Program-made: the position numbers and the translations under genes
From: Ensifer sp. PDNC004
Lineage (GTDB): Bacteria > Pseudomonadota > Alphaproteobacteria > Rhizobiales > Rhizobiaceae
Direction: 5' to 3'
Length of the DNA: 64,000 bases
NCBI RefSeq assembly: GCF_016919405.1
Contig: NZ_CP070352.1
Span: 1 to 64,000 of the forward strand
The notes under the pieces: model-generated
The model's input: the letters and a program-made list of their open reading frames with translations, nothing else
Databases searched by the model: none
Told to the model about the DNA's origin: nothing
In this document: one piece after another, positions 20,846 to 36,357 of the stretch
Layout: the number at the start of each line of letters is the position of its first letter
Position numbering within the stretch: position 1 is the first letter of the stretch

Positions 20846-21421
20846 CTATGCCAGATGCTGCTTGGCGGCAATCGCAAGGCATTCCTTGAAGGCTTGTAGG
20901 TCGGTCAGGCGATCAGCCTCGGGTACTTCGCGCTGCACGAGCCTGCCTTCCCGTCGCAGAACGCCGCCATCTAGCATCAGGTTGTCGGCCATATCGAAGT
21001 CTTCGATGCTGTTCCCGTCCGGACCGGCCATGCGGCCGTCGGGGCGCAGGGCGGCGTTTCCGCCGTAGTGGTCATGCAGGATGCGCTCGTAGTAGCTGCG
21101 GGCGGTGTTCGTATAGGCATAGACGTGCTTGCCATGGCCGCACATGAAGCCGAGTTCGAACACTGTGCCGACGTCGGCGCTGATGCCGCGAAACGGCGTC
21201 AGGTTGGCGATGATCATGTCGGCGGCAAGCATCATGCCTTCGTCGACGGCGTAGATTGCAAGGCCGCGCTGATGCTTGGTCGGAGCCGGCGGGATCTCGA
21301 GATCGCCCGGCACCAGCGGCGTAAACCCGGCAGCGCGCGCCAGTTCCGCCTTCAGTTTCTGGATCTCAGCCGCATTGGGCAGAAACACTTCCGGGCCAGC
21401 GAGATAGACTTTCACGCGCAT
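20846..21421 (-). CDS. Nucleoside 2-deoxyribosyltransferase-like protein
   Basis: A 191-aa protein of the nucleoside 2-deoxyribosyltransferase family, which moves a 2-deoxyribose between bases or cleaves the bond. Motifs are KVYLAGPEVFLPNA at the start, DEGMMLAADMIIANLTPFRG and ADVGTVFELGFMCGHGK, which carries a likely catalytic Glu. The gene stands alone and convergent with the pentapeptide gene. It could have a salvage role or hydrolyse modified nucleotides; the sequence does not decide. Confidence 0.82.
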   Translation of the reverse strand: MRVKVYLAGPEVFLPNAAEIQKLKAELARAAGFTPLVPGDLEIPPAPTKHQRGLAIYAVDEGMMLAADMIIANLTPFRGISADVGTVFELGFMCGHGKHVYAYTNTARSYYERILHDHYGGNAALRPDGRMAGPDGNSIEDFDMADNLMLDGGVLRREGRLVQREVPEADRLTDLQAFKECLAIAAKQHLA

Positions 21422-21965
21422 TCCTCCTCACATTTTCGAGGGGCCAATCTAGGAGAGCTGCAGCCAAGAGCCTAGCCATGGACGTCAGCTTGCCCACGGA
21501 TTTTTGGAGCGGGGGAGGCTGGCGGGCCGCCTGGCATGTTCTGCGCCGGCGGAGACGCCGTTGGCCCAGATCAGCTTCGGCCAATCCCGGCATCTTTGAG
21601 CATGCCACGCGGGCGAGCTTGAAATGCCGGTAACCTGAAATCTGCAGCAGAAGTCTCCTCCGAAGGTGATCGCAACCGTTGCCACCGTTGCGCGCACCGC
21701 CGTTTGAGAAGGCTCACGTGCTGTTGCCGGCTCCGTATCCGTCACGTTTACATGCAGAAACACGCGTAAACGTCAGTGTTTTCGGTCGAATCCGGTTCTT
21801 GCGACGATTTTGCACCGTGTCCGTGCGCGGCTTGCCTGCCGAGGCTCGGCGGTTTCGATTCGCCCGACAGTTGCTGCGTTCCCTGAAATTTCCCCATGCC
21901 TTTGTTCGTCGACGAGTGGGCGTCTTTGCCGTCGTATGCGACTTTAAACAATCATGCATACAAAA

Positions 21966-21975
21966 TTGTCGACAA
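21966..21975. promoter_or_regulatory. Candidate GntR operator TTGTCGACAA
   Basis: A perfect 10-bp palindrome of the T-GT-N-AC-A type bound by FCD-subfamily GntR regulators, about 105 nt before the binding-protein gene at 22080. A near copy, TTGTCTACAA, lies at 32748-32757 next to the FCD-type GntR gene at 32844, which suggests that this regulator controls the importer operon. Confidence 0.5.
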
Positions 21976-21980
21976 AATAG

Positions 21981-22009
21981 TTGACATTGTCGCCGACAGC
22001 TTCAAATCT
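21981..22009 (+). promoter_or_regulatory. Candidate promoter of the second ABC operon
   Basis: A consensus -35 box TTGACA (21981-21986) is followed after 17 nt by a weak -10 (AAATCT, 22004-22009). The palindromic operator candidate ends five bases upstream of the -35, where a bound regulator could block or recruit polymerase. Confidence 0.4.
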
Positions 22010-22079
22010 AGGGCAACTTGCTCACGAGTGGGTGAGGGCGCCTGCATATGGCGACTGATGAGAAAACAGAGGGAACGAC

Positions 22080-23642
22080 ATGAAACTGAGAAAGCATCTC
22101 CTCGCGGGGTTGGCATTTGCCTTTCTCGCATCCTCGGCCTCCGCCGAAACGCTGCGTTGGGGTAGCCCGCGGGATATCTTCTCGCTCGACCCCTATTCCT
22201 ATGGCAGCACCTCGAACCTGGCCTTCCTCAACCACGTGTACGAAGGCCTGACGCGCTACACGCCGGAGTTCAAGGTCGAGCCGGCGCTCGCCACGAGCTG
22301 GGAGATGGTCAAGGACAAGGTCTGGCGCTTCCATCTGCGCAAGGGCGTAAAGTTCCAAAACGGCGCCGAGTTCAACGCTGACGACGTCGTCGCCTCCATG
22401 GCCCGCGTCAGCCATCCGACCTCGCCGCTGCGCGGCAACATTCCGGCCTATGTCTCGACCACCAAGGTCGACGATTACACGGTCGACATCGAAGTCAATT
22501 CGCCGAACCCGCTCTTCCTCAACGACATGACCAACATCTTCATGTTCGACAAGGACTGGCTGGTCGACAACAAGTCCGAGCTGCCAACCGATGTCGGCGC
22601 CAAGGTCGAAGGCTACGCCACCTACAACACCAACGGCACCGGCCCGTTCAAGGTCGAATCGCGCGTGCCCGACAGCAAGACCGTTCTCATCAAGAACGAC
22701 GGCTGGTGGGATACGCCGAAGCACAATCTCGACCGCATTGAATTCATGCCGATTACCTCGGCCGCAACCCGCGTTGCAGCGCTGCTTTCGGGCGAAATCG
22801 ATCTGACCGATGGTGCGCCGGTTCAGGATCTTGAGCGCCTAAAGAGCTCGCCGGACATCAAGGTAATCGAGCGCACTGACCTGCGCACCGTGCACATGGT
22901 CTTCAACCGTCACGAGACCTTCGCCGACGGTCGCGAAAACTTCTTCAACAACATCAAGGTGCGCCAGGCGATTGACCATGCCATCGACCGTCAGCTGATC
23001 TTCAAGCGCGTGATGCGCGGCAAGTCGCATGTCGCCGGCACCATGGTTGCTCCGGAAATCCCGGGCTACAGCGCCGAACTCGATGTGCCGACCGCCTATG
23101 ATCCGGAACTCTCCAAGAAGCTGCTCGAAGAGGCAGGCGCCGTCGGCAAGGAGTTCACGCTCGTCTGCATGAACGACGAAAGCGTCAACGAGGAAGACGT
23201 CTGCAGCGCACTGGTCTCTATGCTGTCGCGCGTCGGCCTGAAGCCAACCCTCGACATCGGTCCGCGCGCCGTGCAGGCGCCGAAGCGCGCCGGCGGCAAG
23301 TCCGACGCCTACATGATCGGCTGGGCCAACGAGCCGACGCTCGATGCCTATTCGATCCTGGTTCAGGTTCTCTCGACCCGTGAAGGTGCTGCCGGCGTTG
23401 CCAACTATGGCGGCTGGTCCTATCCGGAACTCGACGCGATGGTGAAGAAGGCCGCGCTCGAGATGGATCACGACAAGCGTCTGGCGATCGAGACCGAGGC
23501 GCTGAAGTTCGCCAAGGATGAGGTCATCATGATCCCGTTGCACCAGCAGCCGATGGCCTGGGCAATGTCGAAGAACGTCACGGATGTGACCATTCGGGCC
23601 GACAACAAGCCGCGTCACTGGCTGACCCGTATCGGCGATTGA
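22080..23642 (+). CDS. ABC transporter substrate-binding protein, family 5
   Basis: A 520-aa periplasmic binding protein of the peptide/opine/nickel class. It has a signal peptide (cleavage near SSASAE, residue 22), LRWGSPRDIFSLDPYSYGS, VWRFHLRKGVKFQNGAEFNADDVVASMARV, and IKVRQAIDHAIDRQLI. It begins an operon with two permeases, two amidohydrolases and two ATPases. Because the operon encodes ring-opening-type hydrolases and not peptidases, the ligand is more likely a small nitrogen compound; this is inference. Confidence 0.9.
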   Translation: MKLRKHLLAGLAFAFLASSASAETLRWGSPRDIFSLDPYSYGSTSNLAFLNHVYEGLTRYTPEFKVEPALATSWEMVKDKVWRFHLRKGVKFQNGAEFNADDVVASMARVSHPTSPLRGNIPAYVSTTKVDDYTVDIEVNSPNPLFLNDMTNIFMFDKDWLVDNKSELPTDVGAKVEGYATYNTNGTGPFKVESRVPDSKTVLIKNDGWWDTPKHNLDRIEFMPITSAATRVAALLSGEIDLTDGAPVQDLERLKSSPDIKVIERTDLRTVHMVFNRHETFADGRENFFNNIKVRQAIDHAIDRQLIFKRVMRGKSHVAGTMVAPEIPGYSAELDVPTAYDPELSKKLLEEAGAVGKEFTLVCMNDESVNEEDVCSALVSMLSRVGLKPTLDIGPRAVQAPKRAGGKSDAYMIGWANEPTLDAYSILVQVLSTREGAAGVANYGGWSYPELDAMVKKAALEMDHDKRLAIETEALKFAKDEVIMIPLHQQPMAWAMSKNVTDVTIRADNKPRHWLTRIGD

Positions 23643-23650
23643 GTTTTCCT

Positions 23651-23678
23651 GCCCCGGCAGAGCGTGCTTTGCCGGGGC
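23651..23678 (+). promoter_or_regulatory. Intercistronic hairpin after the binding-protein gene
   Basis: GCCCCGGCA (23651-23659) pairs with TGCCGGGGC (23670-23678), nine base pairs, directly after the binding-protein stop and before the permease gene. No T run follows. As in the 6794 operon, it may stabilise the upstream message and so favour binding-protein production. Confidence 0.5.
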
Positions 23679-23700
23679 TCCTCATTCAGCGAGAAACCCA

Positions 23701-24672
23701 ATGATTGTCTTTCTCATCAAGCGGCTGGCCAATGCCGTGCTGGTCATGCTCGCCGTCGCGCTGCTCGCCTTCCTGATCTTCCGCTTCGCCGGCGATCCGG
23801 TCGAGTTGATGGCCAACGAGCAGATGTCGCAGGCCGACCGTATCGAGCTGCGCGAAAAACTCGGGCTCAACGATTCGTTCCTCACCCAGTTCGGTCGCTT
23901 CGTCGGCAATGCCGCCCAGGGCGATTTCGGCATCAGCTACCGCAACGGCCAGGACGTGATGAAGCTCATTGCCGAGCGCTTCCCGGCAACGATGGAACTG
24001 GCGCTGGTCGCAACCGTCCTGTCGCTCCTGATCGGCCTTCCACTCGGCGTCCTGACCGCTATCCACCGAGGGCGATGGTATTCCGAGGGGTTGCAGTTCG
24101 TCAGTATCATCGGCGTCTCCTTGCCGAGCTTCGTCGTCGGTATCCTTCTGATCCTCGTCTTCGCCGTAACGCTCGGCCTCGTACCTGCTTTCGGGCGCGG
24201 CGATGTGGTGCAGCTCGGCTGGTGGAGCACCGGCCTGTTGACGTCGTCGGGCCGCGCGTCGCTGCTTCTGCCGTCGCTCGCACTCGCGCTCTACCAGATC
24301 ACTCTGGTCATGCGCCTGGTGCGCGCAGAAATGATGGAAGTGCTGCGCTCGGACTTCATCAAGTTCGCACGCGCCCGTGGCGTGCCGCGGTGGCGGATCT
24401 ATTTCCGACATGCGCTCAGGAACTGTCTGATGCCGGTTGTCACCATGACGGCGATGAACTTTGGCTCGCTGATCGCCTTCGCGCTGATCACCGAAACCGT
24501 GTTCCAGTGGCCGGGCATGGGCATGCTCTTCATCCAGGCGGTCACCTTCCTCGATATGCCAGTCATGGCGGGCTATCTCTGCATCGTCTCCTTCATCTTC
24601 GTCACGCTCAATACGCTCGTCGATATCGCCTATGCGGTCATCGATCCGCGGTTGCGCGATGCAACCCGCTGA
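23701..24672 (+). CDS. ABC transporter permease, DppB/OppB type
   Basis: A 323-aa inner-membrane permease with about six hydrophobic segments. DppB-type signatures are FLIKRLANAVLVMLAVALLAFLIFRFAGDP and the EAA loop RARGVPRWRIYFRHALRNCLMP. It pairs with the next gene product to form the channel of the importer encoded at 22080-30271. Confidence 0.92.
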   Translation: MIVFLIKRLANAVLVMLAVALLAFLIFRFAGDPVELMANEQMSQADRIELREKLGLNDSFLTQFGRFVGNAAQGDFGISYRNGQDVMKLIAERFPATMELALVATVLSLLIGLPLGVLTAIHRGRWYSEGLQFVSIIGVSLPSFVVGILLILVFAVTLGLVPAFGRGDVVQLGWWSTGLLTSSGRASLLLPSLALALYQITLVMRLVRAEMMEVLRSDFIKFARARGVPRWRIYFRHALRNCLMPVVTMTAMNFGSLIAFALITETVFQWPGMGMLFIQAVTFLDMPVMAGYLCIVSFIFVTLNTLVDIAYAVIDPRLRDATR

Positions 24673-24682
24673 GGTCGTTGCC

Positions 24683-25633
24683 ATGACAGATCACGTCCAG
24701 CAAACCACACCTGCGCGCAAGCCTTCGCGGCTTGCCCGCTGGCGCCAGAGCGATCTCTGGTGGTCCTTCACCCACAAGCCTTCGGCAATCATCGGCGCGA
24801 TCATCCTTACGTTCCTGATCGCGACCGCCTTTGCAGCACCTTTGATTGCGCCGCAGAACCCCTTCGATCCGGCTCAGCTCGAGCTCTGGAACTCCGAGCT
24901 GCCGCCGATCTGGGAGGCCGACGGCCAATGGCCTTACGTGCTCGGCACCGACACGCAAGGGCGCGACATGCTCTCGGCCATTCTCTATGGTTCGCGCATC
25001 TCGATCCTGATCGGCGTCGCCTCGGTCGTGCTTTCGCTCGCGGTCGGCCTTAGCCTCGGCCTCGTTGCCGGCTATTTCGGTCGCTTCATCGACAACTTCC
25101 TGATGCGCATCGGCGACGTGCTTCTGTCGATCCCGACCATCCTGATCGCGATCCTCGTCAGCGCCGTCGCGCGCCAGATGCTGCCGCCGGAACTCAGGGA
25201 TGTCGGCTCTGCCGCCGTTCTGGTGCTGGCGATCACGCTCAGCGCCTGGGTGCAATATGCTCGTACCGTGCGTGCCCAGACGATCGTCGAACGCGGCAAG
25301 GAATACGTGCAGGCTGCGCGCCTTCTGAAAACGCCGGCTCGGCGGATCATGCTGAAGCACATCCTGCCGAACACGCTGACGCCGATCATGGTCGCTGCGA
25401 CCCTGAACTTCGGCATGGCGATCCTGACGGAAGCGACGCTTTCGTTCCTCGGCATCGGCATGCCGCCGAGCCAGCCGAGCCTTGGAACGCTGATCCGTCT
25501 CGGCAATCAGTTCCTGTTTTCGGGCGTATGGTGGGTGGTACTCTTCCCCGTCGTCCAGCTTTGCCTTCTCGTCGTCTCGGTCAACCTGCTCGGTGACTGG
25601 CTGCGCGATGCGCTCAATCCGAAATTGAGGTGA
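24683..25633 (+). CDS. ABC transporter permease, DppC/OppC type
   Basis: A 316-aa permease with the DppC motif VLGTDTQGRDMLSAILYGSRIS, about six membrane segments and the coupling loop LLKTPARRIMLKHILPNTLTP. I chose the ATG at 24683; the frame starts earlier at 24632, inside the upstream permease gene. Its stop codon directly abuts the amidohydrolase start. Confidence 0.92.
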   Translation: MTDHVQQTTPARKPSRLARWRQSDLWWSFTHKPSAIIGAIILTFLIATAFAAPLIAPQNPFDPAQLELWNSELPPIWEADGQWPYVLGTDTQGRDMLSAILYGSRISILIGVASVVLSLAVGLSLGLVAGYFGRFIDNFLMRIGDVLLSIPTILIAILVSAVARQMLPPELRDVGSAAVLVLAITLSAWVQYARTVRAQTIVERGKEYVQAARLLKTPARRIMLKHILPNTLTPIMVAATLNFGMAILTEATLSFLGIGMPPSQPSLGTLIRLGNQFLFSGVWWVVLFPVVQLCLLVVSVNLLGDWLRDALNPKLR

Positions 25634-26830
25634 ATGATGTCCAATCTCCTGATCCGTAACGTCAGGCCCAACGCCGGCGAAGCGACCGACATTCTCGTGC
25701 GCGACGGCAAGATCGCCGCCTTCGGCAAGGGACTTGCCGCCGATGGCGTGGCCGTGGAAGACGGCAACGGCCATATCGTGATCTCCGGTCTGATCGAGGC
25801 GCATACCCATCTCGACAAGTCGGTCTGGGGCATGCCCTGGCACGTCAACGCCAAAACCGCGACGCTGCGCGAACGCATCGATTTCGAACGTGAGAAGCGG
25901 CTTGAAATCGGCATTGATCCGCACCGCCAGTCCATGCGCCAGGCGATCATGCTCGCTGCCAATGGCGCAAGCCACATCCGCAGCCATGTCGACATCGACA
26001 CCACCCACGGCCTCCGGCTGATGGAAGGCATCATCGAAACCCGCCAGGCGCTGAAGGATGTCATCGATATCGAGATCGTCGCCTTCCCGCAGTCGGGTCT
26101 CGTCACCCGGCCTGGTACTGTGGAGCTGCTCGACCAGGCTCTGAGCAAAGGTGCTGAAGTCCTTGGCGGCATTGATCCCTGCGGCATCGACCGCGACCCG
26201 AAGGGCCATCTCGACGCGATCTTCGGTCTTGCCGAAAAACACGGAAAGCCGATCGACATTCACCTGCACGAGCAGGGCGAGCTCGGCGCCTTCAGCATGG
26301 AAATGATGTTCGAACGCATCCGAGCGCTCGGCATGCAGGGCAAGGTGGCGATCAGCCATGCCTTTGCACTCGGCGCGCCGGATTATCTGCGCGTCGGCGG
26401 CCTGATCGAACAGATCGCCGAACTCGATATCCGTATCGTCACCACCGGTTCGCCGTCTTCGACCGTGCCGTCGATCTTGCGTCTGAAGGATGCCGGCGTG
26501 AAGGTTGCTGCCGGCTGCGACGGTATCCGCGACACCTGGGGTCCGTGGGGCCAGCCCGACATGATGGATCGTGCCCGCATCCTCGGCATGAAGAACGGCC
26601 TGCGCCGCGACGTCGATCTTGAATACGCGCTCTACGTCTGCTCCAAGGGCGGCGCCGACGTCATGGATATCGAGGGCTATGGCCTCGAGGTCGGCTGTGA
26701 CGCCGATTTCACCCTGCTCACCGGCGAGACTTTGGCGCATGCCGTCGTCGACGTCGCGCCTCGGCCGATAGTCGTCAAGCGCGGCCGCGTCGTCGCCCGC
26801 AACGGCGTTGCGGAGGTGGCGATCCCATGA
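25634..26830 (+). CDS. Amidohydrolase, cytosine deaminase (CodA)-like
   Basis: A 398-aa metal-dependent amidohydrolase of the cytosine-deaminase branch. The metal and catalytic motifs are intact: HTHLDKS (about 57-63), RSHVDI, IDIHLHEQGE (HxxE as in CodA), ISHAFAL and GCDGIRDTWGPWG with the metal Asp. Family members deaminate or hydrolyse cyclic amidines such as cytosine, creatinine-like or triazine compounds. The ATG follows the permease stop directly; a second ATG three bases later is equally possible. It overlaps the next gene by four bases. Substrate not known. Confidence 0.85.
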   Translation: MMSNLLIRNVRPNAGEATDILVRDGKIAAFGKGLAADGVAVEDGNGHIVISGLIEAHTHLDKSVWGMPWHVNAKTATLRERIDFEREKRLEIGIDPHRQSMRQAIMLAANGASHIRSHVDIDTTHGLRLMEGIIETRQALKDVIDIEIVAFPQSGLVTRPGTVELLDQALSKGAEVLGGIDPCGIDRDPKGHLDAIFGLAEKHGKPIDIHLHEQGELGAFSMEMMFERIRALGMQGKVAISHAFALGAPDYLRVGGLIEQIAELDIRIVTTGSPSSTVPSILRLKDAGVKVAAGCDGIRDTWGPWGQPDMMDRARILGMKNGLRRDVDLEYALYVCSKGGADVMDIEGYGLEVGCDADFTLLTGETLAHAVVDVAPRPIVVKRGRVVARNGVAEVAIP

Positions 26831-28311
26831 CCAACATCAAGGATTTGACGCTCGGTGAGCGCGCCGAAGGACGCACGCTTCTGACAGCGCAATGGGTGCT
26901 CGGGCACCGCGACGGTTCGCACCGGCTGATCCCGAACGGCGAAGTCGTCATCGAGGGCGGCACGCTGCTCTATGTCGGCCCGCGCTTCGAGGGTGAAGTG
27001 GCACGCCGCATCGATCTCGGCGCTGCCATGATCAGCCCCGGGCTGATCGACCTCGACGCGCTCTCAGATCTCGACACGACGATCCTTGCGATCGACCATC
27101 AGCCCGGCTGGGCCAAGGGTCGCGTCTGGCCGCTGAGCTACATCGAGCGCGGCCCCTATGAGATGTACACGCAGGAGGAGCTGGCGTTCCAGAAGCGCTT
27201 CGCCTTCGCGCAGCTTCTCTTGAATGGCATCACCACCGCAGCGCCGATCGCCTCGCTTTTCTATCGCGAATGGGGCGAGACCGTTGCTGAATTCGCCGCC
27301 GCATCCGACGCCGCAGGTGACCTCGGTCTTCGCGTTTATCTGAGCCCGGCCTATCGCGCCGGCGGCATGATGGTGACGGCGCCGGGTCAGCTCGAAGCGA
27401 TCTTCGACGAGGCAAGGGGTCTGAAGGGCCTTGACGACGCGATTGGCTTCATCCGTGACCATGAAGGTCGCCATGGTGGCCTGGTGAAGGGCCTGCTGGC
27501 TCCCGACCGGGTGGAAACCTGCACCGAGAAACTGCTGGTTCGCACCGCCGATGCGGCGCGCGACCTCAATTGCCCGATCCGGCTTCATGCTGCGCAGGGC
27601 ACGATGGAGGTCGACACCGTCCGCCGCCTGCATGGCAAGACGGCGCCGGAATGGCTGGCGAGCTTCGGTTTCTTGAGCGACCGGCTGATTGCGCCGCACG
27701 CAACGCATGCGACCGACAACGATCTGCGGCTCTATGCCGAAAATGGCGTGAGCATCGTGCACTGCCCGCTGGTTTCGGCCCGCGGCGGCAGCACGCTGAA
27801 CTCGTTCCGCTCGGTGAAGGCCCGCGGCGTCAACATTGCCATGGGCACAGACACCACGCCGCCGGACATGCTGATGAACCTGCTCGTCGGCCTGATTGCT
27901 GCCCGCGTCGTCGAAGGCGACCCGTCAGCCGTAAGTTGCGCCGATCTCTTCGACGCCGCGACACTTGGCGGCGCCAAGGCGCTCGGCCGCTCGGATCTCG
28001 GTCGCCTGGAAGCGGGCGCCCGTGCCGATATCGCCGTCTTCGATCTCATGGACCATCACATGGCGCCGGCGATCGATCCGATCACGACGCTCGTCGTCGG
28101 TGGTTCCGGACGCGTCACCAAGGCGGTTTTCGTCGATGGCCGTCTGTCGATGCGCGATGGCGAGGTGGCAGGCTTCGACATGAACGCGGCACGCGCGCAG
28201 GCACAGGTCCAGTTCGATGGCCTGATTGCCAAGTATCCGGAGCGGAGCTTCGGTCACCCGCCTGTCAGCGAGATCTTCCCGCCGAGCTACCCATTGGAGG
28301 TGCAGCGATGA
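26827..28311 (+). CDS. Amidohydrolase-fold protein lacking the HxH metal motif
   Basis: A 494-aa member of the TRZ/ATZ chlorohydrolase-like branch. The position that normally reads PGLxNxHxH is PGLIDLDALS (residues 71-80), so the first His is Asp and the second is Leu. HAAQ (254-257) stands where HxxE is usual, while the later APHATH (289-294) and GTDTTPPD (340-347, metal-type Asp342) remain. It may bind a metal differently or act without the usual hydrolysis. Encoded in tight overlap with the intact amidohydrolase and the ATPase genes. Confidence 0.8.
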   Translation: MTNIKDLTLGERAEGRTLLTAQWVLGHRDGSHRLIPNGEVVIEGGTLLYVGPRFEGEVARRIDLGAAMISPGLIDLDALSDLDTTILAIDHQPGWAKGRVWPLSYIERGPYEMYTQEELAFQKRFAFAQLLLNGITTAAPIASLFYREWGETVAEFAAASDAAGDLGLRVYLSPAYRAGGMMVTAPGQLEAIFDEARGLKGLDDAIGFIRDHEGRHGGLVKGLLAPDRVETCTEKLLVRTADAARDLNCPIRLHAAQGTMEVDTVRRLHGKTAPEWLASFGFLSDRLIAPHATHATDNDLRLYAENGVSIVHCPLVSARGGSTLNSFRSVKARGVNIAMGTDTTPPDMLMNLLVGLIAARVVEGDPSAVSCADLFDAATLGGAKALGRSDLGRLEAGARADIAVFDLMDHHMAPAIDPITTLVVGGSGRVTKAVFVDGRLSMRDGEVAGFDMNAARAQAQVQFDGLIAKYPERSFGHPPVSEIFPPSYPLEVQR

Positions 28312-29294
28312 CTGAACATGCCTCATCGGCCGTGCTCGACGTGCGCGGTCTCTGCGTCGAATTCCCCGGCCGCCATGGAACGGTGCAGGCGCTATCCGAC
28401 GTTTCGCTCAGCATTCGCCCCGGCGAAATCCTCGGCGTCGTCGGTGAATCCGGCGCTGGAAAGTCGATGACCGGTCTTGCCGTCCAGGGACTTCTGGAGC
28501 CGCCTGGTCGCATTTCCGGCGGCGAGGTCTGGGTCGGCGGCCGCCGCATCGACCAGCTCGACGACAAGCAGATGCAGCAGGTCCGCGGCCGGCAGATCGG
28601 CGCAATCTTCCAGGATCCGCTGACGTCGCTGAACCCGCTCTTCACCGTCGGGGCGCAGCTTGTCGAGACGATCCGCCTCCACTTGAAGCTGTCCAGGGCC
28701 GATGCCAAGGCGCGTGCCATCCAGCTCCTGAAGGAAGTCGGCATTCCGGCGCCCGAGGCACGTTATGACCACTATCCGCATCAGTTCTCGGGCGGCATGC
28801 GCCAGCGCGTTGTCATCGCCTTGGCGCTCGCCGCAGAACCGAAGCTGATCATTGCCGACGAGCCGACGACGGCGCTCGACGTCTCGATCCAGGCGCAGAT
28901 CACCTCGCTGCTTCGCCGTCTTTGCGACGATCACGGAACGGCGGTCATGCTCGTCACCCACGACATGGGCGTGATTGCCGAGACGGCCGATCGCGTGGCG
29001 GTCATGTATGCCGGGCGTCTCGTCGAGATCGGCCCTGTGGCCGAGGTACTGAAAAATGCCCGCCATCCCTATACGCGCGGCCTGATGGGCTCGATCCCGG
29101 CGCTTGGCCGCCGGGTCGAGCGGCTGAACCAGATCGACGGTTCCATGCCGCGTCTGAACGCGATCCCCGCCGGCTGCGCCTTCAATCCGCGCTGCCCGGA
29201 TGCCGGACCGCGCTGCCGCAAGGATCGGCCCGAACCGGCGCCGGTCGGGACCGGCGTCGCCGCATGCTGGCTCAATGCAGGAGGAGTGCTATGA
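28308..29294 (+). CDS. ABC transporter ATPase, DppD/OppD type
   Basis: A 328-aa ATPase with Walker [10 protein letters not shown], signature FSGGMRQR, Walker [13 protein letters not shown] and a C-terminal OppD extension with the cysteine cluster [14 protein letters not shown], which in this family can hold an iron-sulfur cluster or zinc. It starts inside the stop of the upstream amidohydrolase gene and energises the importer of this operon. Confidence 0.93.
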
Positions 29295-30271
29295 GTGATG
29301 CCCTGACGGTCAACGACCTGACCTGCAATTTCGACGTTTCGGCACCCTGGCTGAACCGGGTGATCGAGCGCAAACCGCGGCAGTTCGTGCGCGCCGTGGA
29401 TGACATCAGCTTTACCGTACCCATGGGCGGTTGTCTGAGCCTCGTCGGCGAATCCGGCTGCGGCAAGTCGACGGTGGCGCGGCTGGTCACCGGTCTCTAT
29501 CGCGCCAGCGAAGGCGAGGTGCGGTTCGCACCGAGCAAGAACGGCGAGCCGCTCTCGGCTCAGATGATCTTCCAGGATCCCTATGCCAGCCTCAATCCGC
29601 GCTGGCGGGTGCGCAACATCATCGCCGAACCGCTGCGCGAGTTGAAGCTGCGCAACTCCGAAGCCGAGATCATGGAACGGGTCGGCGAGCTGCTCACGAT
29701 CGTCGGCCTTGCGCCCTCTGATGGCGCGAAGTTTCCGCACGAGTTTTCGGGCGGCCAGCGCCAGCGTATCTCGATTGCCCGCGCGCTTGCCGGCGAGCCG
29801 GAGTTCCTCGTCTGCGACGAGCCGACCTCGGCGCTCGACGTATCGGTCCAGGCGCAGATCCTCAACCTCATGCGCAAGCTGCAGGACGAGATGGGGCTGA
29901 CCTATCTCTTCATCAGTCACGATATGAGCGTGGTGCGTCACATGTCGGATCGGATCGCCGTCATGTATCTCGGACGCATCGTCGAGGAGGCCGACACCGA
30001 GACGCTCTTTGCCAATCCGCGGCATCCCTATACCCAGCTGCTGCTGGAGACGATCCCGGATATCACCCATCCGAAGCGCGGGCGCAGCATTGCGGCAAGC
30101 GAAGTGCCGAGCCCGCTGAACCCGCCGTCCGGCTGTACCTTCCATCCGCGTTGCCCGTTTGCAGACCAGCGCTGCAAGAGCGAGCGGCCGGAGATGCGCA
30201 GCTTTTCTGACGGTTCGCGTGCCGCCTGTCACCGCATCGAAGAAACGGTGAAGGCGATCAACGCAGCGTAA
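29291..30271 (+). CDS. ABC transporter ATPase, DppF/OppF type
   Basis: A 326-aa second ATPase with GESGCGKST, FSGGQRQR, FLVCDEPTSALD and the C-terminal CTFHPRCPFADQRC cysteine motif. It overlaps the upstream ATPase gene by four bases and is the last gene of the operon; a terminator follows 27 nt later. Confidence 0.93.
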   Translation: MSDALTVNDLTCNFDVSAPWLNRVIERKPRQFVRAVDDISFTVPMGGCLSLVGESGCGKSTVARLVTGLYRASEGEVRFAPSKNGEPLSAQMIFQDPYASLNPRWRVRNIIAEPLRELKLRNSEAEIMERVGELLTIVGLAPSDGAKFPHEFSGGQRQRISIARALAGEPEFLVCDEPTSALDVSVQAQILNLMRKLQDEMGLTYLFISHDMSVVRHMSDRIAVMYLGRIVEEADTETLFANPRHPYTQLLLETIPDITHPKRGRSIAASEVPSPLNPPSGCTFHPRCPFADQRCKSERPEMRSFSDGSRAACHRIEETVKAINAA

Positions 30272-30297
30272 CGCCGACCTCTTTCCCTGAAGCCTTG

Positions 30298-30334
30298 GGC
30301 TCCGTGTCGTGCCAGTCGCGGAGCCTCTTTTTTT
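30298..30334 (+). terminator. Terminator of the second ABC operon
   Basis: GGCTCCG (30298-30304) pairs with CGGAGCC (30319-30325), followed by TCTTTTTTTT. A standard Rho-independent terminator 27 nt after the last ATPase gene. Confidence 0.88.
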
Positions 30335-30555
30335 GCCGCCGGCAAGTTTCAGTCTTTGCTCCGGGCAAATCGCGCGCCCCTTTCGCACCGCTGTCGTCAG
30401 GCAAATGCTAGCCTGCTAACCGGAATTCAACGAAATAGACCGATGACCATTCCCGGGCTCCAACACTCACGTTAGGGTAAGGGCCGATGGCCGGACCGCA
30501 TCCCGCTTGGGACATCTGGCCGGGATCGAAATGCGTTGATTTGAAGAGTTGGCCT

Positions 30556-31203
30556 ATGAACACGACCTCCGACACCGATTTCCCCATCCTCAATGCCGTT
30601 GAAGCCCGCGTTCTCGGATGCCTGATCGAGAAGAAGGAAACGACGCCCGACGTCTATCCGCTGACGCTCAATTCGGCGCATTCGGCTGCCAACCAGAAAA
30701 CGGCGCGCGATCCGGTCATGGCGCTCGAGCAGGTCGAGATCCACCGCGCGCTCTCGTCCCTGGCGCAGAAGGGATTGGTCCGGCAGGCGTTTGCCTCGCG
30801 GGTCGAGCGCTACGAGCACCTCGCAGCCAACCGTTTTTCGCTGACGTCGCCGCAGATCGTCGTGCTCGGCCTGCTTCTTCTTCGCGGCCCCCAGACGGCC
30901 TACGAGCTTTGGGCGCGCAGCGAGCGCATGGCACGGTTCTCGTCGGTCGAGGAGCTGAAGGACAATCTGGATCTGATGATGGGCCGCCGGCCGCCGCTGA
31001 TCGTTCAACTGAACCGGGGTGCCGGCCAGCGCGAGGACCGGTTCGCGCATCTGTTGTGCGGTGACGTCGAGCAGCCTGCCGAAAGGGCCGTCGTGTCTTC
31101 GGCGCCGAGCGGCTCGGCTTTATCGGCCCTCGAAGAACGACTGGAAGCGCTTGAGCGCAAGGTGGCGACGCTCGAGGAGCAGCTCGATGCTCTGACGCGC
31201 TGA
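30556..31203 (+). CDS. YceH family (DUF480) protein
   Basis: A 215-aa protein of the YceH/DUF480 family: tandem winged-helix domains (LNAVEARVLGCLIEKKETTPDVYPLTLNSAHSAANQK at the start, LSLT-type second domain about 95-160) and a short C-terminal coiled coil (LEERLEALERKVATLEEQ). The family is widespread in proteobacteria with no settled function. I used the ATG at 30556, where the family begins. It separates the importer operon from the racemase and regulator genes and is probably not part of that pathway. Confidence 0.85.
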   Translation: MNTTSDTDFPILNAVEARVLGCLIEKKETTPDVYPLTLNSAHSAANQKTARDPVMALEQVEIHRALSSLAQKGLVRQAFASRVERYEHLAANRFSLTSPQIVVLGLLLLRGPQTAYELWARSERMARFSSVEELKDNLDLMMGRRPPLIVQLNRGAGQREDRFAHLLCGDVEQPAERAVVSSAPSGSALSALEERLEALERKVATLEEQLDALTR

Positions 31204-31225
31204 AGGCGTCAAGCTTCTGAACATA

Positions 31226-31260
31226 ATGTCACCGGGCGCGCCATGTGCGTCCGGTGACAT
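31226..31260. terminator. Hairpin between convergent genes
   Basis: ATGTCACCGG (31226-31235) and CCGGTGACAT (31251-31260) form a perfect ten-base-pair stem between the yceH-like stop and the racemase stop. It can act on both strands, but lacks a T run. Confidence 0.5.
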
Positions 31261-31272
31261 ATCGGGATGCGC

Positions 31273-32004
31273 TCAGCCGGCGTCGACCAACTGGCAGGCT
31301 GGTGTTTCCTTGGCACGCGGATAGTCGTAGGCGCCCACCTTAGAGGTGGCATAGCCGCCACCGACCAGCGCTTCGGCAAGCTTCACGGCCGCCGTCACGC
31401 CGTCGATCACGGGCATGCCGGTCCGCGCCTTCAGCCGATCGCAGAGCTCGGACATGCCGGCGCAGCCGAGGATGATCGCTTCCGCGCCATCCTCCTGACG
31501 TGCCTTCAGGATTTCCTGAACCAGCATCTCCTCGGTGTGGGCAAGATCCTCCTCCAGCGCCAGCACGGGCATGTCGACCGAGCGCACCTTGCGGCAGCGA
31601 TGGCCGGCACCGTAGGCCTCGGCCAGATCCTCGATGATCGGCACGGAGCGGGGCAGGGTGGTGATGATCGTAAAACGGGTCGCGATGTTCATCGCCACCT
31701 GCACGGCCGCCTGACAGATGCCGATGACCGGACCGCGGGCGATTTCGCGTGCAGCGCCAAGGCCGGGATCGTCGAAGCAGGCAATCACATAGGCATCGAC
31801 GCCGCGCGCTTCGCCCTTGCGGATCTCCGCAAGCATCGCCGGCACCGCCATCGCTTCGTCCGCGTGGCCTTCGATGCTGGCCGGGCTCGATGTCGGGTTG
31901 ATCGATTCGAGTTGCGTGTCGGATGCAGCGACGCGCTCGGCGCTGCGGTGCGCCTGTTCGGTCATCGAGCGGGTGGAGTTTGGATTGATCAGCAGGATGC
32001 GCAT
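31273..32004 (-). CDS. Hydantoin/allantoin racemase-like protein (Asp/Glu racemase superfamily)
   Basis: A 243-aa cofactor-independent racemase of the HyuE/HpxA group. The start MRILLINPNST is typical, and the two catalytic cysteines are in VIACFDDPGL (about residue 75) and ILGCAGMSEL (about 185). Members interconvert enantiomers of 5-substituted hydantoins or allantoin. It is three bases downstream of the flavin reductase gene on the same strand and divergent from the GntR regulator. In this context it may supply the right enantiomer to the amidohydrolases. Confidence 0.85.
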   Translation of the reverse strand: MRILLINPNSTRSMTEQAHRSAERVAASDTQLESINPTSSPASIEGHADEAMAVPAMLAEIRKGEARGVDAYVIACFDDPGLGAAREIARGPVIGICQAAVQVAMNIATRFTIITTLPRSVPIIEDLAEAYGAGHRCRKVRSVDMPVLALEEDLAHTEEMLVQEILKARQEDGAEAIILGCAGMSELCDRLKARTGMPVIDGVTAAVKLAEALVGGGYATSKVGAYDYPRAKETPACQLVDAG

Positions 32005-32007
32005 GGA

Positions 32008-32652
32008 TCAGCTCGTCTTCCGCATGGCGTTTGCAAGGGGGGCATAGGCGGCAATGTCGGGCGTCGGCATGACGAATTGACGATCCGATGTGATGTAGTT
32101 ATTGGCGTGCAGCCGTGCGATCGGCTGGTATTGCGACGGGTCGACGTAGCGGCCCTCCTCGTCGAGGCAGTCCTTGCGCACGTGCATATGCACGACCTCG
32201 CCGAGAACGATGACTCGGCGGTCGTATTCAATGAGCCGTTCGACACGGCATTCCATCGAGCAGGGCGACTCGACGATACGGCGGGCGCCAACCTTGAGGC
32301 CGTCAGCCGCTGTCAGTCCGGCGATTGCCACTTCGTCGACATCCGGCTCGAAGGATAGGCCGCAGACCAGCATCTGGTCGGCGATCGCCATGTCCACCAT
32401 GTTGACGACGAATTCGTTGGTACGCCGGATATTGGCGACCGTGTCCTTCTCTTCGCCGTTCGGGCGGGTCTGGATACCGAGGATGACGATCGGCGGGTCG
32501 TGCGAGAAGACGTTGAAGAAGCTCATCGGCGCGGCATTGTCCTGTCCGCTCGGCGAGAGCGTCGAGACCAGCGCGATCGGTCGCGGGCCGATGAAGTTCG
32601 TCAGCAGGCGGTAACGGTCCTGGGCCGGCAGTTCTGTGAAATCGAAGTCCAT
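32008..32652 (-). CDS. Flavin reductase-like (flavoredoxin) domain protein
   Basis: A 214-aa FMN-binding split-barrel protein of the flavin reductase/flavoredoxin family. It shows GPRPIALVSTLSPSGQDNAAPMSFFNVFSHDPP (about 22-54) and KDTVANIRRTNEFVVNMV. Such proteins supply reduced flavin to an oxygenase or act as flavoredoxins. No partner oxygenase lies in this operon. The ATG at 32652 is used; a start four codons earlier is possible. Confidence 0.82.
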   Translation of the reverse strand: MDFDFTELPAQDRYRLLTNFIGPRPIALVSTLSPSGQDNAAPMSFFNVFSHDPPIVILGIQTRPNGEEKDTVANIRRTNEFVVNMVDMAIADQMLVCGLSFEPDVDEVAIAGLTAADGLKVGARRIVESPCSMECRVERLIEYDRRVIVLGEVVHMHVRKDCLDEEGRYVDPSQYQPIARLHANNYITSDRQFVMPTPDIAAYAPLANAMRKTS

Positions 32653-32747
32653 CGGAGCTCTCAATTGGCGCCGCGGCCCGGGTTTGTGCCGGTCGCACGG
32701 TCGTGTTTAAGCGGTTGCCATTGCACATCAAGTTGCGGTACACAATA

Positions 32748-32769
32748 TTGTCTACAATTTTGTAGTCAA
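32748..32769. promoter_or_regulatory. Candidate GntR operator in the divergent promoter region
   Basis: TTGTCTACAA (32748-32757) and TTGTAGTCAA (32760-32769) form an imperfect inverted repeat between the flavin reductase and gntR starts. The left half differs by one base from the palindrome at 21966-21975 upstream of the importer operon. This supports autoregulation plus control of the importer operon by the adjacent regulator. Confidence 0.5.
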
Positions 32770-32843
32770 TATCTAACTGCAGCGGATGGAATTGACTTTG
32801 AGCGCCGCACGGCGAGAGTAAGCGAACGGCTAAGGGAGATTTC

Positions 32844-33530
32844 ATGTATAACGCGGACGAAGTCGCCGGTGCTCCGACGGCGATCATTTGCGAGAAGATC
32901 TGGCTTGCGATTGCAGAGCGTCGGCTACGGCCGGGAACGCGATTGAAAGAAGAGCAACTTGCCGAAATATTCTCCGTCAGCAGGGCGCGCATCCGCCAGG
33001 CACTGACCGCGCTCGAGCGCGATGGCCTTGTGACGATCATGCCGAACCGTGGCGCCTTCGTCTCCGAGCCTTCGGTGGACGAGGCACGCGATGTCTTCGT
33101 TGCCCGCAGGGCGATCGAGCAGCGCGTCGTCGAGCGCCTTTGCGAGCGCGCCAATCCCAAGGATATCGTCCGGTTGCGCGCCCATATCGAAGAGGAGCGC
33201 ATTGCCGGCCGGTCCGGCAATCTTTCTGATATCGTTCGGCTTTCCGGCGGTTTCCACCTGTTGCTCGCGGAGCTTTCGGGTTCTGCCTTCCTCTTCGGCA
33301 TCCTGCGAGACCTCGTGTCCCGGACATCCCTGATCACAGCGATGTACCGGTCGAACCACCTGCACAATTGCGGGCCGGACGAGCACCTGGCCGTGGTCGA
33401 GTTCATCGCTTCTCGCGATGTGGCGAGCGCGATCAAGGAGATGGCCGAGCACCTGAACCATGTGGAAGCGGAACTGGATCTGGACGAGGAGAAGGACCAG
33501 CCCCGCGATCTTCGCACTGCATTGCTCTGA
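32844..33530 (+). CDS. GntR family regulator, FCD subfamily
   Basis: A 228-aa FadR-type regulator. The winged helix is near residues 10-75 (PGTRLKEEQLAEIFSVSRARIRQALTALERDGLV), followed by an all-helical FCD effector domain with likely metal-binding His residues (LRAHIEEE, GGFHLLLAEL, EHLAVVEFI). Such regulators commonly repress catabolic genes until a pathway intermediate binds. Adjacent and distant copies of a shared palindrome mark its likely targets. Confidence 0.9.
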   Translation: MYNADEVAGAPTAIICEKIWLAIAERRLRPGTRLKEEQLAEIFSVSRARIRQALTALERDGLVTIMPNRGAFVSEPSVDEARDVFVARRAIEQRVVERLCERANPKDIVRLRAHIEEERIAGRSGNLSDIVRLSGGFHLLLAELSGSAFLFGILRDLVSRTSLITAMYRSNHLHNCGPDEHLAVVEFIASRDVASAIKEMAEHLNHVEAELDLDEEKDQPRDLRTALL

Positions 33531-33599
33531 TGCGGCGCGCGCGACCCATTGCACCGCACTTTAGAGGAGGCGGTGCCTGCCAGCAGACTGAAGGAAGAT

Positions 33600-34427
33600 A
33601 TGACCAACCGTAGTTATTATGCGCCGCATGGCGGCAACCCGCCCCAAACCCAACTGCTTTCGGATCGCGCGGTCTTCACTGAAGCCTATGCGGTGATTCC
33701 GAAAGGGACGATGATGGACATCGTCACCAGCTATCTGCCGTTCTGGGACAAGACCCGGCTGTGGATACTGTCCCGGCCGCTCTCCGGTTTTGCTGAAACA
33801 TTTTCACAATATATCATGGAAATCGCTCCGGGGGGCGGTAGTGACAAGCCCGAACTCGACGAGGGCGCCGAAGGCGCGATCTTCGTCGTTGAGGGCGAAT
33901 TGACCATCACGCTCGACGGCAAGGCGCACAAGATGCAGCCGGGCGGCTTCGCCTTCATCCCGCCGGCAAGCAACTGGACCGTTCGCAATGCAAGTGAAGC
34001 GACCGTTCGCTTCCACTGGGTGCGCAAGGCCTACGAGTATGTCGATGGCCTGCCCGCGCCGGAGGCCTTCTTCACCAATGAGGCCGAAATCACCCCGTCG
34101 CCGATGCCCGGCACCGAAGGCAAGTGGGCAACGACCCGCTTCGTCGACCCGACGGACCTGCGCCACGACATGCACATGACGATCGTCACCTTCGAACCCG
34201 GCGCGATCATTCCCTTTGCCGAGACGCACGTGATGGAACACGGCCTCTATGTGCTCGAAGGCAAGGCGGTCTACCGACTCAACCAGGATTGGGTCGAGGT
34301 CGAGGCCGGCGACTATATGTGGCTGCGCGCGTTCTGCCCGCAGGCTTGCTATGCCGGCGGCCCGGGCAAGTTCCGTTACCTGCTCTACAAGGACGTGAAC
34401 CGCCACATGAAGCTGCGCTCGCGTTAA
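33600..34427 (+). CDS. (S)-ureidoglycine aminohydrolase-like bicupin
   Basis: A 275-aa two-cupin protein close in length and motifs to bacterial ureidoglycine aminohydrolase (YlbA/AllE): RSYYAPHGGNPPQTQLLSDRAVFTEAYAVIP at the start, GAEGAIFVVEGELTITLDGKAH in cupin 1, and ETHVMEHGLYVLEGKAVYRLN with the metal-binding E/H set in cupin 2. The known enzyme releases ammonia from ureidoglycine in allantoin breakdown. Here it follows gntR by 69 nt with an AAGGAAG site before the ATG at 33600. No allantoinase or allantoate amidohydrolase of the classic type is present, so the real substrate may differ. Confidence 0.85.
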   Translation: MTNRSYYAPHGGNPPQTQLLSDRAVFTEAYAVIPKGTMMDIVTSYLPFWDKTRLWILSRPLSGFAETFSQYIMEIAPGGGSDKPELDEGAEGAIFVVEGELTITLDGKAHKMQPGGFAFIPPASNWTVRNASEATVRFHWVRKAYEYVDGLPAPEAFFTNEAEITPSPMPGTEGKWATTRFVDPTDLRHDMHMTIVTFEPGAIIPFAETHVMEHGLYVLEGKAVYRLNQDWVEVEAGDYMWLRAFCPQACYAGGPGKFRYLLYKDVNRHMKLRSR

Positions 34428-34548: not shown

Positions 34549-36357
34549 TCAATCTACCAGTTGCGGATCGGCCGGCTGCAGGTTGCGCGGCTGGAGACGC
34601 CTGAGTGTGCTTCCGGTAGGGTTCTTGTCGAGGTGCAGCACGCGGGTAAAGAAGTCGCTGCCGCGTTCAGTGCGTCCGATGTTGACGATCGCCACGCCTT
34701 GAAGCTCGTCCTCCATGAACTTCAGCACGCGCTGGTAGGCGTCATCCTCGAGGGTATCGAGCGCTTCGTCGATGATCAGCCAGCGCGGCCTGTGCAGACC
34801 GAGCCTAGCGATGGCGAGGAGGCGCTGCTCGGCCTCGCTGAGGTTCATCTGCTTTCGTGCATCCTGGTCGAGCCGGCCACTCAGTCTGCCAAGGCCAACC
34901 TTGGAGAGAACGGCGGCGAGTTCGCCCTTGCTGTAGGTATCGGGCGGGCTCGGATAGGCGAGCACTTCTCCAAGCGTGCCCGGCGGGAAATAGGGAGACT
35001 TCGGCACAAAAGCCAGGCCATCGTCCACCGGCAGTGCGATGCGGCCGTGGCCCCAGGGCCAGAGCCCGGCGATTGCGCGGAAGAACGGCGCCTTTTCCAC
35101 CTCGGGCGCGCCGGTGACGAGCACGCGCTCGCCCGGATCGATGGTGACGCTCGGCTCGCGAAGCTGGATGCAGCCGGTCGGTGAGACGATCTCGATGTTG
35201 TCGAAGCTCATCTGCGGCGTATCGGAGGTCCTGAAGTCGATGCGCTTGTCGCCCTCATGCCGTTCGTCGGTCATCAGGAGCGCCGAGCGGAAGGCAGCGA
35301 CGCGCAGCAACGTGGCGCGCCAGTCGGCGATCGCGCCGATGTTGTCGACGAACCAGCGCAGCGACGCATGCACCTGGTTGAAGGCGCCGACGGCCATCAT
35401 CAGGCCACCGAAGCTGAGGTCGCCGGCGAAGTAGACCGGTGCGGCAATGACGATCGGCGCAACCACGGTGATCCAGCCATAGCCGCCGGTCACCCAGGTG
35501 AGTCGCGTTACCGCTCGCAGCAGGCCGTAGCTGACCTCGAGCACCGATGCGAGGTCGCGCTGTAGCCGCTTTTTCTCGTTGGCTTCGCCCGACGAAAGCG
35601 ACACGGCTTCGATATGCTCGTTGACCCGCATCAGCGAGAAACGCAGCGCCGCCTCCCGGGCATAGTGCTCGCCATTCAGCGCCACCAGAGGCCTGCCGAC
35701 CAGCCAGCTCAGCCAGGAAGCAGTCCCCGCATAGAGGATCGCCGCCCAGACCATGTAGCCGGGGATGGCGAAGGAATAGCTCGCGACATGGAAGACGAAG
35801 CCGTCCGATAGCGACCACAGTACGCCGATGAAGCTCACCAGCAGGATGCCGGATTGGAAGAGGCCGATCGAAAGTCCGGCCGAGAGGTCGGTCAGGTGGC
35901 GCGCATCCTCATGGATGCGCTGGTCCGGGTTGATGCCGATGGCGCCGGCATTCGCCAGCCGGAACGCCCGCGTCGGGCGCATCCATTCGGTAATCAGGTC
36001 CTGGGTCAGGCCTTCCCGCAGGCGCAGCTTGATGACCTGGCCGAGCCAGGTTTGCAGGACGTTGAGGACGAGAAGAACGCCGGCGATCTGGGCGAAGACG
36101 ACGAGTTGATGGAGAAAGGCCGGAAGGTCGCGGCGCTCGAGCGTGTCGTAGAACGGCTTGTACCATCGGTTGAGGATGATCTGACCAAAGGCTGTCACAA
36201 CGATGACAACGATGATGCTTATGCTCAGCCAGATGATCTTGTTGCGCAGTGGCGAGGCCATGAAGGCCCGATGCATCATCCGCAATTGATCACCGAGGGA
36301 TTGTTCGTCGCTAGGCTCTATCCGGCCACTAACTTCGCCGTTCGTCCGGTTCGACAT
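34549..36357 (-). CDS. ABC transporter with fused membrane and ATPase domains (YddA/SbmA-like), degenerate nucleotide site
   Basis: A 602-aa protein. Residues about 40-330 are an SbmA/BacA-like membrane domain (NRWYKPFYDTLERRDLPAFLHQ, NPDQRIHEDARHLTDL); the C-terminus is an ABC ATPase domain. Its Walker A position reads GAPEVEKA (416-423) where GxxGxGKS/T is usual, and the signature region reads MNLSEAEQR. The Walker B WLIIDEA (526-532) is kept. It may hydrolyse ATP poorly or not at all. I used the ATG at 36357; the frame extends upstream without family sequence. The gene stands alone. Confidence 0.85.
   Translation of the reverse strand: MSNRTNGEVSGRIEPSDEQSLGDQLRMMHRAFMASPLRNKIIWLSISIIVVIVVTAFGQIILNRWYKPFYDTLERRDLPAFLHQLVVFAQIAGVLLVLNVLQTWLGQVIKLRLREGLTQDLITEWMRPTRAFRLANAGAIGINPDQRIHEDARHLTDLSAGLSIGLFQSGILLVSFIGVLWSLSDGFVFHVASYSFAIPGYMVWAAILYAGTASWLSWLVGRPLVALNGEHYAREAALRFSLMRVNEHIEAVSLSSGEANEKKRLQRDLASVLEVSYGLLRAVTRLTWVTGGYGWITVVAPIVIAAPVYFAGDLSFGGLMMAVGAFNQVHASLRWFVDNIGAIADWRATLLRVAAFRSALLMTDERHEGDKRIDFRTSDTPQMSFDNIEIVSPTGCIQLREPSVTIDPGERVLVTGAPEVEKAPFFRAIAGLWPWGHGRIALPVDDGLAFVPKSPYFPPGTLGEVLAYPSPPDTYSKGELAAVLSKVGLGRLSGRLDQDARKQMNLSEAEQRLLAIARLGLHRPRWLIIDEALDTLEDDAYQRVLKFMEDELQGVAIVNIGRTERGSDFFTRVLHLDKNPTGSTLRRLQPRNLQPADPQLVD

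Follow-up and report, generated by a model that had tools for sequence, protein, structure and literature searches.

Positions 21966–34427 of a 64,000-nt stretch of DNA from Ensifer sp. PDNC004 (hereafter the window) encode a Dpp-type importer with two embedded amidohydrolases (AH1 and AH2), a hydantoin/allantoin-type racemase, a flavin reductase-like protein, a GntR/FCD regulator and a cupin. Together these genes probably constitute one GntR/FCD-controlled regulon for the uptake and catabolism of a small N-heterocycle. Related gene sets occur in several groups of soil and marine bacteria. Open reading frames (ORFs) and Pfam/NCBIfam profile matches, by which families were assigned, agree with the genes and families described earlier from the letters alone (the sequence-only reading), whose list did not include a DUF480 gene. 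New relative to that reading are a motif shared by both promoters, a second locus elsewhere in the genome and an AH2 that lacks the HxH motif. The window is part of a 1.79-Mb contig in a 6.78-Mb genome, and Ensifer adhaerens plasmids carry DNA 96% identical across the entire stretch.

The importer operon (22080–30271, plus strand) holds AH1 and AH2 between its permease and ATPase genes, with overlapping start and stop codons at the AH1/AH2, AH2/ATPase D and ATPase D/ATPase F junctions. The DUF480 gene divides this half from a second one, which consists of the racemase/flavin-reductase pair on the minus strand and the GntR/cupin pair on the plus strand (Table 1).

Linkage was counted in 67 loci centred on window-type AH2 genes. 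The window's family contributed 40 of these regions (38 genomes), a second family 19, a class sample one and a phylum sample L078–L084; among AH2-positive genomes, seven of 45 in the window's family (the window's own, three of the same genus and three others) and three of 24 in the second family were left out. A gene was scored as present at ≥33% identity with ≥50% query coverage within about 20 kb, criteria that admit GntR and ABC subunits easily and overlook other racemases as well as genes beyond a region's edge (L111 holds a PF01177 gene missed by the count). ATPase F was found in 61 loci, AH1 in 60, ATPase D in 59, GntR in 57, the permeases in 55 and 54, the solute-binding protein (SBP) in 54, the flavin reductase in 53, the racemase in 43 and the cupin in one. 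Conversely, among 25 loci retrieved with the racemase, 18 contain AH2 (Ensifer-type, Pseudochrobactrum-type, Oceaniglobus and the metagenome-assembled genome (MAG) RHODO1), and a further two, L014 and L016, are truncated by contig ends. The gene order varies. Marinovum algicola plasmid pMaD8 carries importer, flavin reductase, AH1, AH2, a third amidohydrolase and racemase in one direction with genes touching; Leisingera has the same touching, one-direction string up to the third amidohydrolase, followed by an NCS1-type permease and a racemase divergent from a second GntR gene. Sulfitobacter has a tight cluster of importer, flavin reductase, racemase, AH1 and AH2 near xanthine-dehydrogenase-family genes, and S. 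medicae and S. meliloti Ak57 carry further annotated rearranged forms. The neighbourhood comparison proposed in the sequence-only reading thus finds the halves linked in many relatives rather than never together.

The two promoters have a palindrome in common. When every gapped palindrome was counted in about 330 bases upstream of the SBP and flavin-reductase genes, ATTGT-N2-ACAAT, with its nested shorter forms, ranked top in both sets. After de-duplication, exact copies are present in 23/73 SBP and 13/55 flavin-reductase upstream sequences, with 0.0 expected from 20 shuffled sets. Sites matching at least 9 of 10 positions occur in 64/88 SBP and 43/77 flavin-reductase upstream regions, compared with 1.5 and 0.7 in shuffles; as these shuffles were drawn from a first-order Markov model and relatedness is common among the promoter sequences, the de-duplicated counts are the safer ones. 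Among 71 loci with both genes, a site of at least 8/10 stands at both in 47 and at one or more in 70, a match of 8/10 being by itself weak evidence (shuffles give about 15/88 and 8/77). Twelve places in the window reach 8/10, and the two that reach at least 9/10 are those at the two promoters; the start given in the sequence-only reading, 21966, lies inside the proposed operator at 21965–21976. Flavin-reductase genes embedded in the importer string, for example that of Marinovum, lack a site of their own (5/10), and L117 and L118 have good sites at neither place (8 and 6; 7 and 6). The tandem arrangement is not uniform: a second copy follows at +12 in 18/61 SBP sites, and the usual offset at flavin-reductase sites is 22 (15/30).

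Genome-wide there are three exact copies (none for a reversed control): one in the window, one at C1:280310 and one within an ORF at C1:900711, the last set aside as chance. With one mismatch allowed, each strand has 65 sites and the reversed control gives 11, so that the support for the SBP site comes from conservation and not from rarity. The copy at C1:280310–280321 is flanked on one side by a GntR gene, located from 280432 onward, whose product is 44% identical to the window GntR, and on the other by a divergent gene that extends to 280165 and by eye encodes an importer binding protein. This second GntR/importer/amidohydrolase locus (C1:275268–282846, L085) encodes an HxH-bearing amidohydrolase, AH4, which also occurs near the main cluster in 5/67 loci. 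The proposed regulon may therefore have a second site in the genome. We infer from these sequences that the GntR protein controls both halves through binding to the common palindrome.

Linkage in the 67 loci, one-direction strings on Roseobacter-type plasmids and the palindrome at both promoters lead us to treat the halves as one system, as the sequence-only reading had done. Separate regulation, which it had named as evidence to the contrary, is disfavoured by a candidate operator upstream of both halves; co-regulation itself was not measured, and some loci hold one half alone. The halves could be chance neighbours, an importer operon beside an unrelated ureide gene pair, and each half indeed occurs alone as well; moreover, the window and 5 of 11 Ensifer-type loci have the DUF480 gene in the intervening position. 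Given rearranged orders and one-direction strings in other taxa, in addition to the linkage and the motif common to both halves, we regard this as very improbable.

AH1 matches NF004636 with 536 bits (cut-off 408). Its metal site is intact in the alignment, with the HxH, His, Glu, His, Asp pattern, and the motifs are retained across the aligned AH1 sequences, among which L037 is a fragment. Its nearest relatives are 6nbo (371 bits) and AtzC (178 bits). AH1 is best read as a canonical, AtzC/cytosine-deaminase-like hydrolase; it shares the metal-residue pattern with that group and differs from it in being paired with a partner devoid of HxH. Third amidohydrolases in L033 (12154–13596), L034 (2761–4119) and L035 (10589–12004) keep HxH, and their β5 His-xx-Glu fails to align (LLTQDGH or similar).

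HxH after strand 1 is the metal motif of amidohydrolases. The window AH2 has PGLIDLDALSDLD at that place, and HxxQ instead of HxxE. HxH is absent from all 73 AH2 copies, which were selected by similarity at ≥42% identity, HxH-bearing relatives being more distant. It is likewise absent from 36 representatives, in which the first position is D (34) or N (2) and the second L (35) or I (1). In the AH2 tree, a branch supported at 100/100 has all the HxH-less forms on one side. A search with PRK06151 in 299 genomes returned nine matches above cut-off, eight of which are HxH-less and adjoin AH1; the remaining one (L056/L087) has HxH and no adjacent AH1. The HxH-less clade occurs in two Alphaproteobacterial families, a further Pseudomonadota class and Rhodococcus. 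Fold comparison indicates that AH2 keeps the amidohydrolase TIM barrel, and H254, Q257, H291 and D342 are invariant in 36/36 representatives, accompanied by the clade-specific residues D81, D83, R228 and R252. The Gln is not the distinguishing mark of AH2, since the HxH-bearing AH4 group also has Gln for Glu (8/9 rows). Compared with other cog0402 deaminases and chlorohydrolases (isocytosine deaminase Vcz, TrzN, AtzA), AH2 has [D/N]x[L/I] where HxH stood. Deamination by two amidohydrolases, as put forward in the sequence-only reading, is not supported by an AH2 without this motif.

Two accounts of AH2, neither reaching even odds in our estimate, can be offered. The clade may have swapped HxH for an acidic [D/N]x[L/I]...DxD arrangement and may catalyse a new reaction on an N-heterocycle; in the Alphaproteobacteria AH1 would be its partner within a GntR-controlled catabolic regulon that moves horizontally. 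Just as conceivably, AH2 has no catalytic activity and is a pseudo-enzyme acting as a subunit or scaffold for AH1, in the manner of pseudo-dihydroorotases and CRMPs, which would be compatible with the regulon proposed here. The loss of HxH from a whole clade, the presence of AH1 in 60/67 loci and the start–stop overlap of the two genes in the window favour a subunit role, whereas the invariant and clade-specific residues look like a working pocket and seven of 67 AH2 genes occur without AH1. The clade raises the question of how an amidohydrolase works, or why it is retained, without the metal-holding motif of its relatives.

The racemase (PF01177, 204 bits) aligns end to end with 3qvj, its nearest relative, and then with the allantoin racemase 5lfd. 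The two Cys residues of PF01177 racemases are catalytic; in the window protein they lie in ACFDDPG and LGCAGM. Both are also present in 3qvj and both altered in chain 3qvk, whereas 5lfd has Gly at the first position. The PDB names 3qvj a 'putative hydantoin racemase', and we take it to be the K. pneumoniae allantoin racemase. The nearest solved relative of the flavin protein is 2-nitrobenzoate nitroreductase, followed by NTA monooxygenase component B. The cupin exceeds the cut-offs for (S)-ureidoglycine aminohydrolase (TIGR03214, 304 bits against 200; NF040771, 508 against 350) and is the only such match in the genome. It is present in 11/11 Ensifer-type loci of the racemase-found set and in 1/67 AH2-centred loci, and thus joins the system in Ensifer-type loci only. 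Its reading as a step of the core pathway is weakened by these counts.

Among the genes of 21966–34427, Pfam/NCBIfam profiles found no allantoinase or downstream allantoin enzyme besides the cupin, and no hydantoinase or carbamoylase. The absence of classic allantoin enzymes stated in the sequence-only reading is thus true of the locus and not of the genome, which encodes two PuuE allantoinases and an allantoicase elsewhere: a PuuE-UraD fusion adjoins allantoicase on C1, and C2 carries PuuE-UraD-AllA-UraH in the neighbourhood of guanine deaminase. Matches over cut-off at other places also include one hydantoinase and six of the hydantase family. With these genes available, enzymes acting in trans could complete the breakdown of a hydantoin- or allantoin-like product. 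Hydantoin-utilisation (hyu) operons share the hydantoin-type racemase with the window locus and differ from it in containing the hydantoinase and carbamoylase. Allantoin/purine clusters have the racemase type and the ureidoglycine aminohydrolase-family cupin in common with it, and differ by PuuE, UraD, AllA and UraH, which the window locus lacks.

The two PuuE genes and the allantoicase leave room for the cluster to feed the ordinary ureide route: imino-allantoin or another oxidised guanine product would be imported, deaminated by AH1 to allantoin, racemised and passed to PuuE, allantoicase and the cupin. The full-length racemase matches to 3qvj and 5lfd, the sole cupin of the genome and a 56%-identical racemase clustered with a cupin and PuuE-UraD in L026 are consistent with such a feeder. 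The core, however, contains no ureide enzyme, the cupin being the only ureide-operon feature at the locus and nearly absent from the wider set, and 5lfd lacks the first Cys of the window racemase, which makes the feeder slightly less likely; overall we consider it unlikely. PuuE itself does not discriminate, because its occurrence is at a ceiling: 40/40 cluster genomes, drawn from 69 AH2-positive ones, have it over cut-off, as do 38/40 genomes not among the positives.

An N-heterocycle is a plausible substrate class, on the indirect grounds of the AtzC/cytosine-deaminase-like AH1, the hydantoin/allantoin-type racemase and single loci with an NCS1-type permease, a PF00383 deaminase (L083) or xanthine-dehydrogenase-family genes (L034). 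In the regulon we propose, the Dpp-type importer would take up the heterocycle, AH1 would, like AtzC or cytosine deaminase, hydrolyse an exocyclic C–N bond on the ring, and the flavin protein would perform or feed a redox step. The racemase would act on a 5-substituted hydantoin-like intermediate, such as allantoin, and interconvert its enantiomers; opening of this intermediate could fall to general enzymes (hydantoinase, carbamoylases, PuuE) whose genes are at other places in the genome. AH2, with its fold and four active-site residues kept and HxH exchanged for [D/N]x[L/I], would differ from the usual metal-dependent deaminases and may work through a rebuilt site or in partnership with AH1, and the cupin would be an Ensifer addition.

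An alternative to this scheme, which strikes us as improbable, has as substrate an N-alkylated, amino-acid- or polyamine-like ring such as an arginine imidazolone adduct, from which AH1 frees an amine as AtzC does, with the 5-substituted hydantoin going to the racemase. AtzC-type enzymes are the nearest relatives of AH1, and the second locus has, by eye, an amino-acid-type importer. Importers beside AH1–AH2 vary and are mostly of the peptide type; that of L078, instead of being of the Dpp type, is of the SBP_bac_8 type (Pfam), which we take as polyamine-like, and by eye those of L079, L080, L114 and L134 are too. Importer families nevertheless guide poorly to ligands. Less probable still is an aromatic amine route of the 3-hydroxyanthranilate (3-HAA) type with the flavin protein as a nitroreductase. 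The kinship of that protein with 2-nitrobenzoate nitroreductase points this way, as do AHS, solved with 3-HAA, among the fold matches of AH2 and AH2 genes near 3-hydroxyanthranilate dioxygenase in L127 and in Rhodococcus (L150). These are only two loci, in which AH1, flavin reductase and racemase of the window type were not found, and AHS ranked below many deaminases.

Several observations weigh against the single N-heterocycle regulon that we favour. No racemase was found in 24/67 loci and no flavin reductase in 14/67, and the latter is unmatched in 3/11 Ensifer-type loci (L008, L009 and L025). The seven AH2 genes without AH1 (L110, L113 and L123–L127) have other neighbours, and 5/25 racemase-found loci (L026–L030, racemase 50–56% identical) lack the importer and AH1/AH2. 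A plasmid of S. meliloti ml21 carries racemase, flavin reductase and GntR with a different importer and no amidohydrolase; a plasmid of strain R28 combines AH1 and AH2 with a third amidohydrolase and allB, and has neither racemase nor flavin reductase. The proximity of AH2 to 3-hydroxyanthranilate dioxygenase in Rhodococcus and L127 has no obvious fit, a rough base-composition estimate predicts about one chance occurrence of the exact operator genome-wide, and the Gly of 5lfd adds to these points.

AH2 was detected at E≤1e-120 in 45/297 genomes of the window's family and 24/248 of the second, and at E≤1e-80 in 5/387 genomes across the class. From gene content we presume the second family to be Rhodobacteraceae/Roseobacter-type, and G058, G062 and G139 to be Pseudomonas-like. 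Members of the two families are intermixed in the AH2 tree, suggesting that AH2 has been exchanged between the families. The 30 kb read of S. meliloti 1021 pSymA contain only a 1.8-kb remnant of a related cluster (L148, 17218–19040), 98.3% identical to strain R28 and comprising an AH2 shortened at its 5' end and the front part of allB; its reduction to a remnant in this laboratory strain may be one reason why the cluster escaped notice. No paper on the cluster or the HxH-less clade was among the literature matches listed, which is no proof of absence. If the proposed regulon exists, it would represent an uncharacterised nitrogen-scavenging route in an appreciable fraction of rhizobia and Roseobacter-type bacteria, and the candidate operator would make its substrate findable via reporter screens.

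Table 1 Features of the locus and its proposed operators (window coordinates)
Feature	Position	Strand	Basis or remark
Proposed GntR operator upstream of importer operon	21965–21988		ATTGTCGACAAA (21965–21976), 9/10 to ATTGTNNACAAT, then weaker ATAGTTGACATT (8/10)
SBP, family 5, peptide/nickel/opine type	22080–23642	+	Pfam/NCBIfam
Dpp/Opp-type permease B (DppB-type)	23701–24672	+	NCBIfam/Pfam
Dpp/Opp-type permease C (DppC-type)	about 24659–25633, start approximate	+	Pfam/NCBIfam
AH1, amidohydrolase, subfamily PRK05985, AtzC/cytosine-deaminase group	25634–26830	+	
AH2, cog0402-type amidohydrolase, subfamily PRK06151 'chlorohydrolase'	26827–28311	+	
Importer ATPase D (Opp/Dpp)	28308–29294	+	Pfam/NCBIfam
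Importer ATPase F (Opp/Dpp)	29291–30271	+	Pfam/NCBIfam
DUF480 gene, between both halves	30487–31203, start unsure	+	
Asp/Glu/hydantoin racemase, hydantoin/allantoin type	31273–32004	-	PF01177
Flavin reductase-like protein	32008–32664	-	
Proposed GntR operator, flavin reductase/GntR intergenic	32747–32770		ATTGTCTACAAT (32747–32758), 10/10, then TTTGTAGTCAAT (8/10)
GntR/FCD regulator	32844–33530	+	
(S)-ureidoglycine aminohydrolase cupin	33549–34427, or start 33600	+	Just downstream of GntR, same strand

The DUF480 gene was set aside as a member of the system because only 5/11 Ensifer-type loci have it, and it probably lies outside the system; L014 ends before its position and L025 has it about 5 kb farther off. 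DUF480-like genes near L078–L080 look like coincidence.

AH2 adjoins a xylose-isomerase-like TIM-barrel gene in L111, L113, L127 and L150 (PF01261 confirmed in L127 and L150, the others by eye). L150, a plasmid of Rhodococcus sp. JS3073, encodes an HxH-less AH2 (DLNAL) together with AH3, and genes for 3-hydroxyanthranilate dioxygenase, acetaldehyde dehydrogenase and 4-hydroxy-2-oxovalerate aldolase lie near the two. L022, titled Bacillus subtilis SK6B4, holds a Pseudochrobactrum-like cluster, and the record may be mislabelled or contaminated.

Around the locus, a gene for an SbmA/BacA-like ABC membrane protein (34549–36279, minus strand) adjoins the cupin gene, as in Ensifer-type loci too, and a nucleoside 2-deoxyribosyltransferase-family gene (20846–21421, minus strand) lies upstream of the importer. 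A further family-5 binding protein and a double ATPase (6794–8431 and 10313–11953, plus strand) possibly belong to a second peptide-type importer. The window also encodes a protein of ~2000 residues with repeated Ig-like and fibronectin domains (55608–61595, plus strand).

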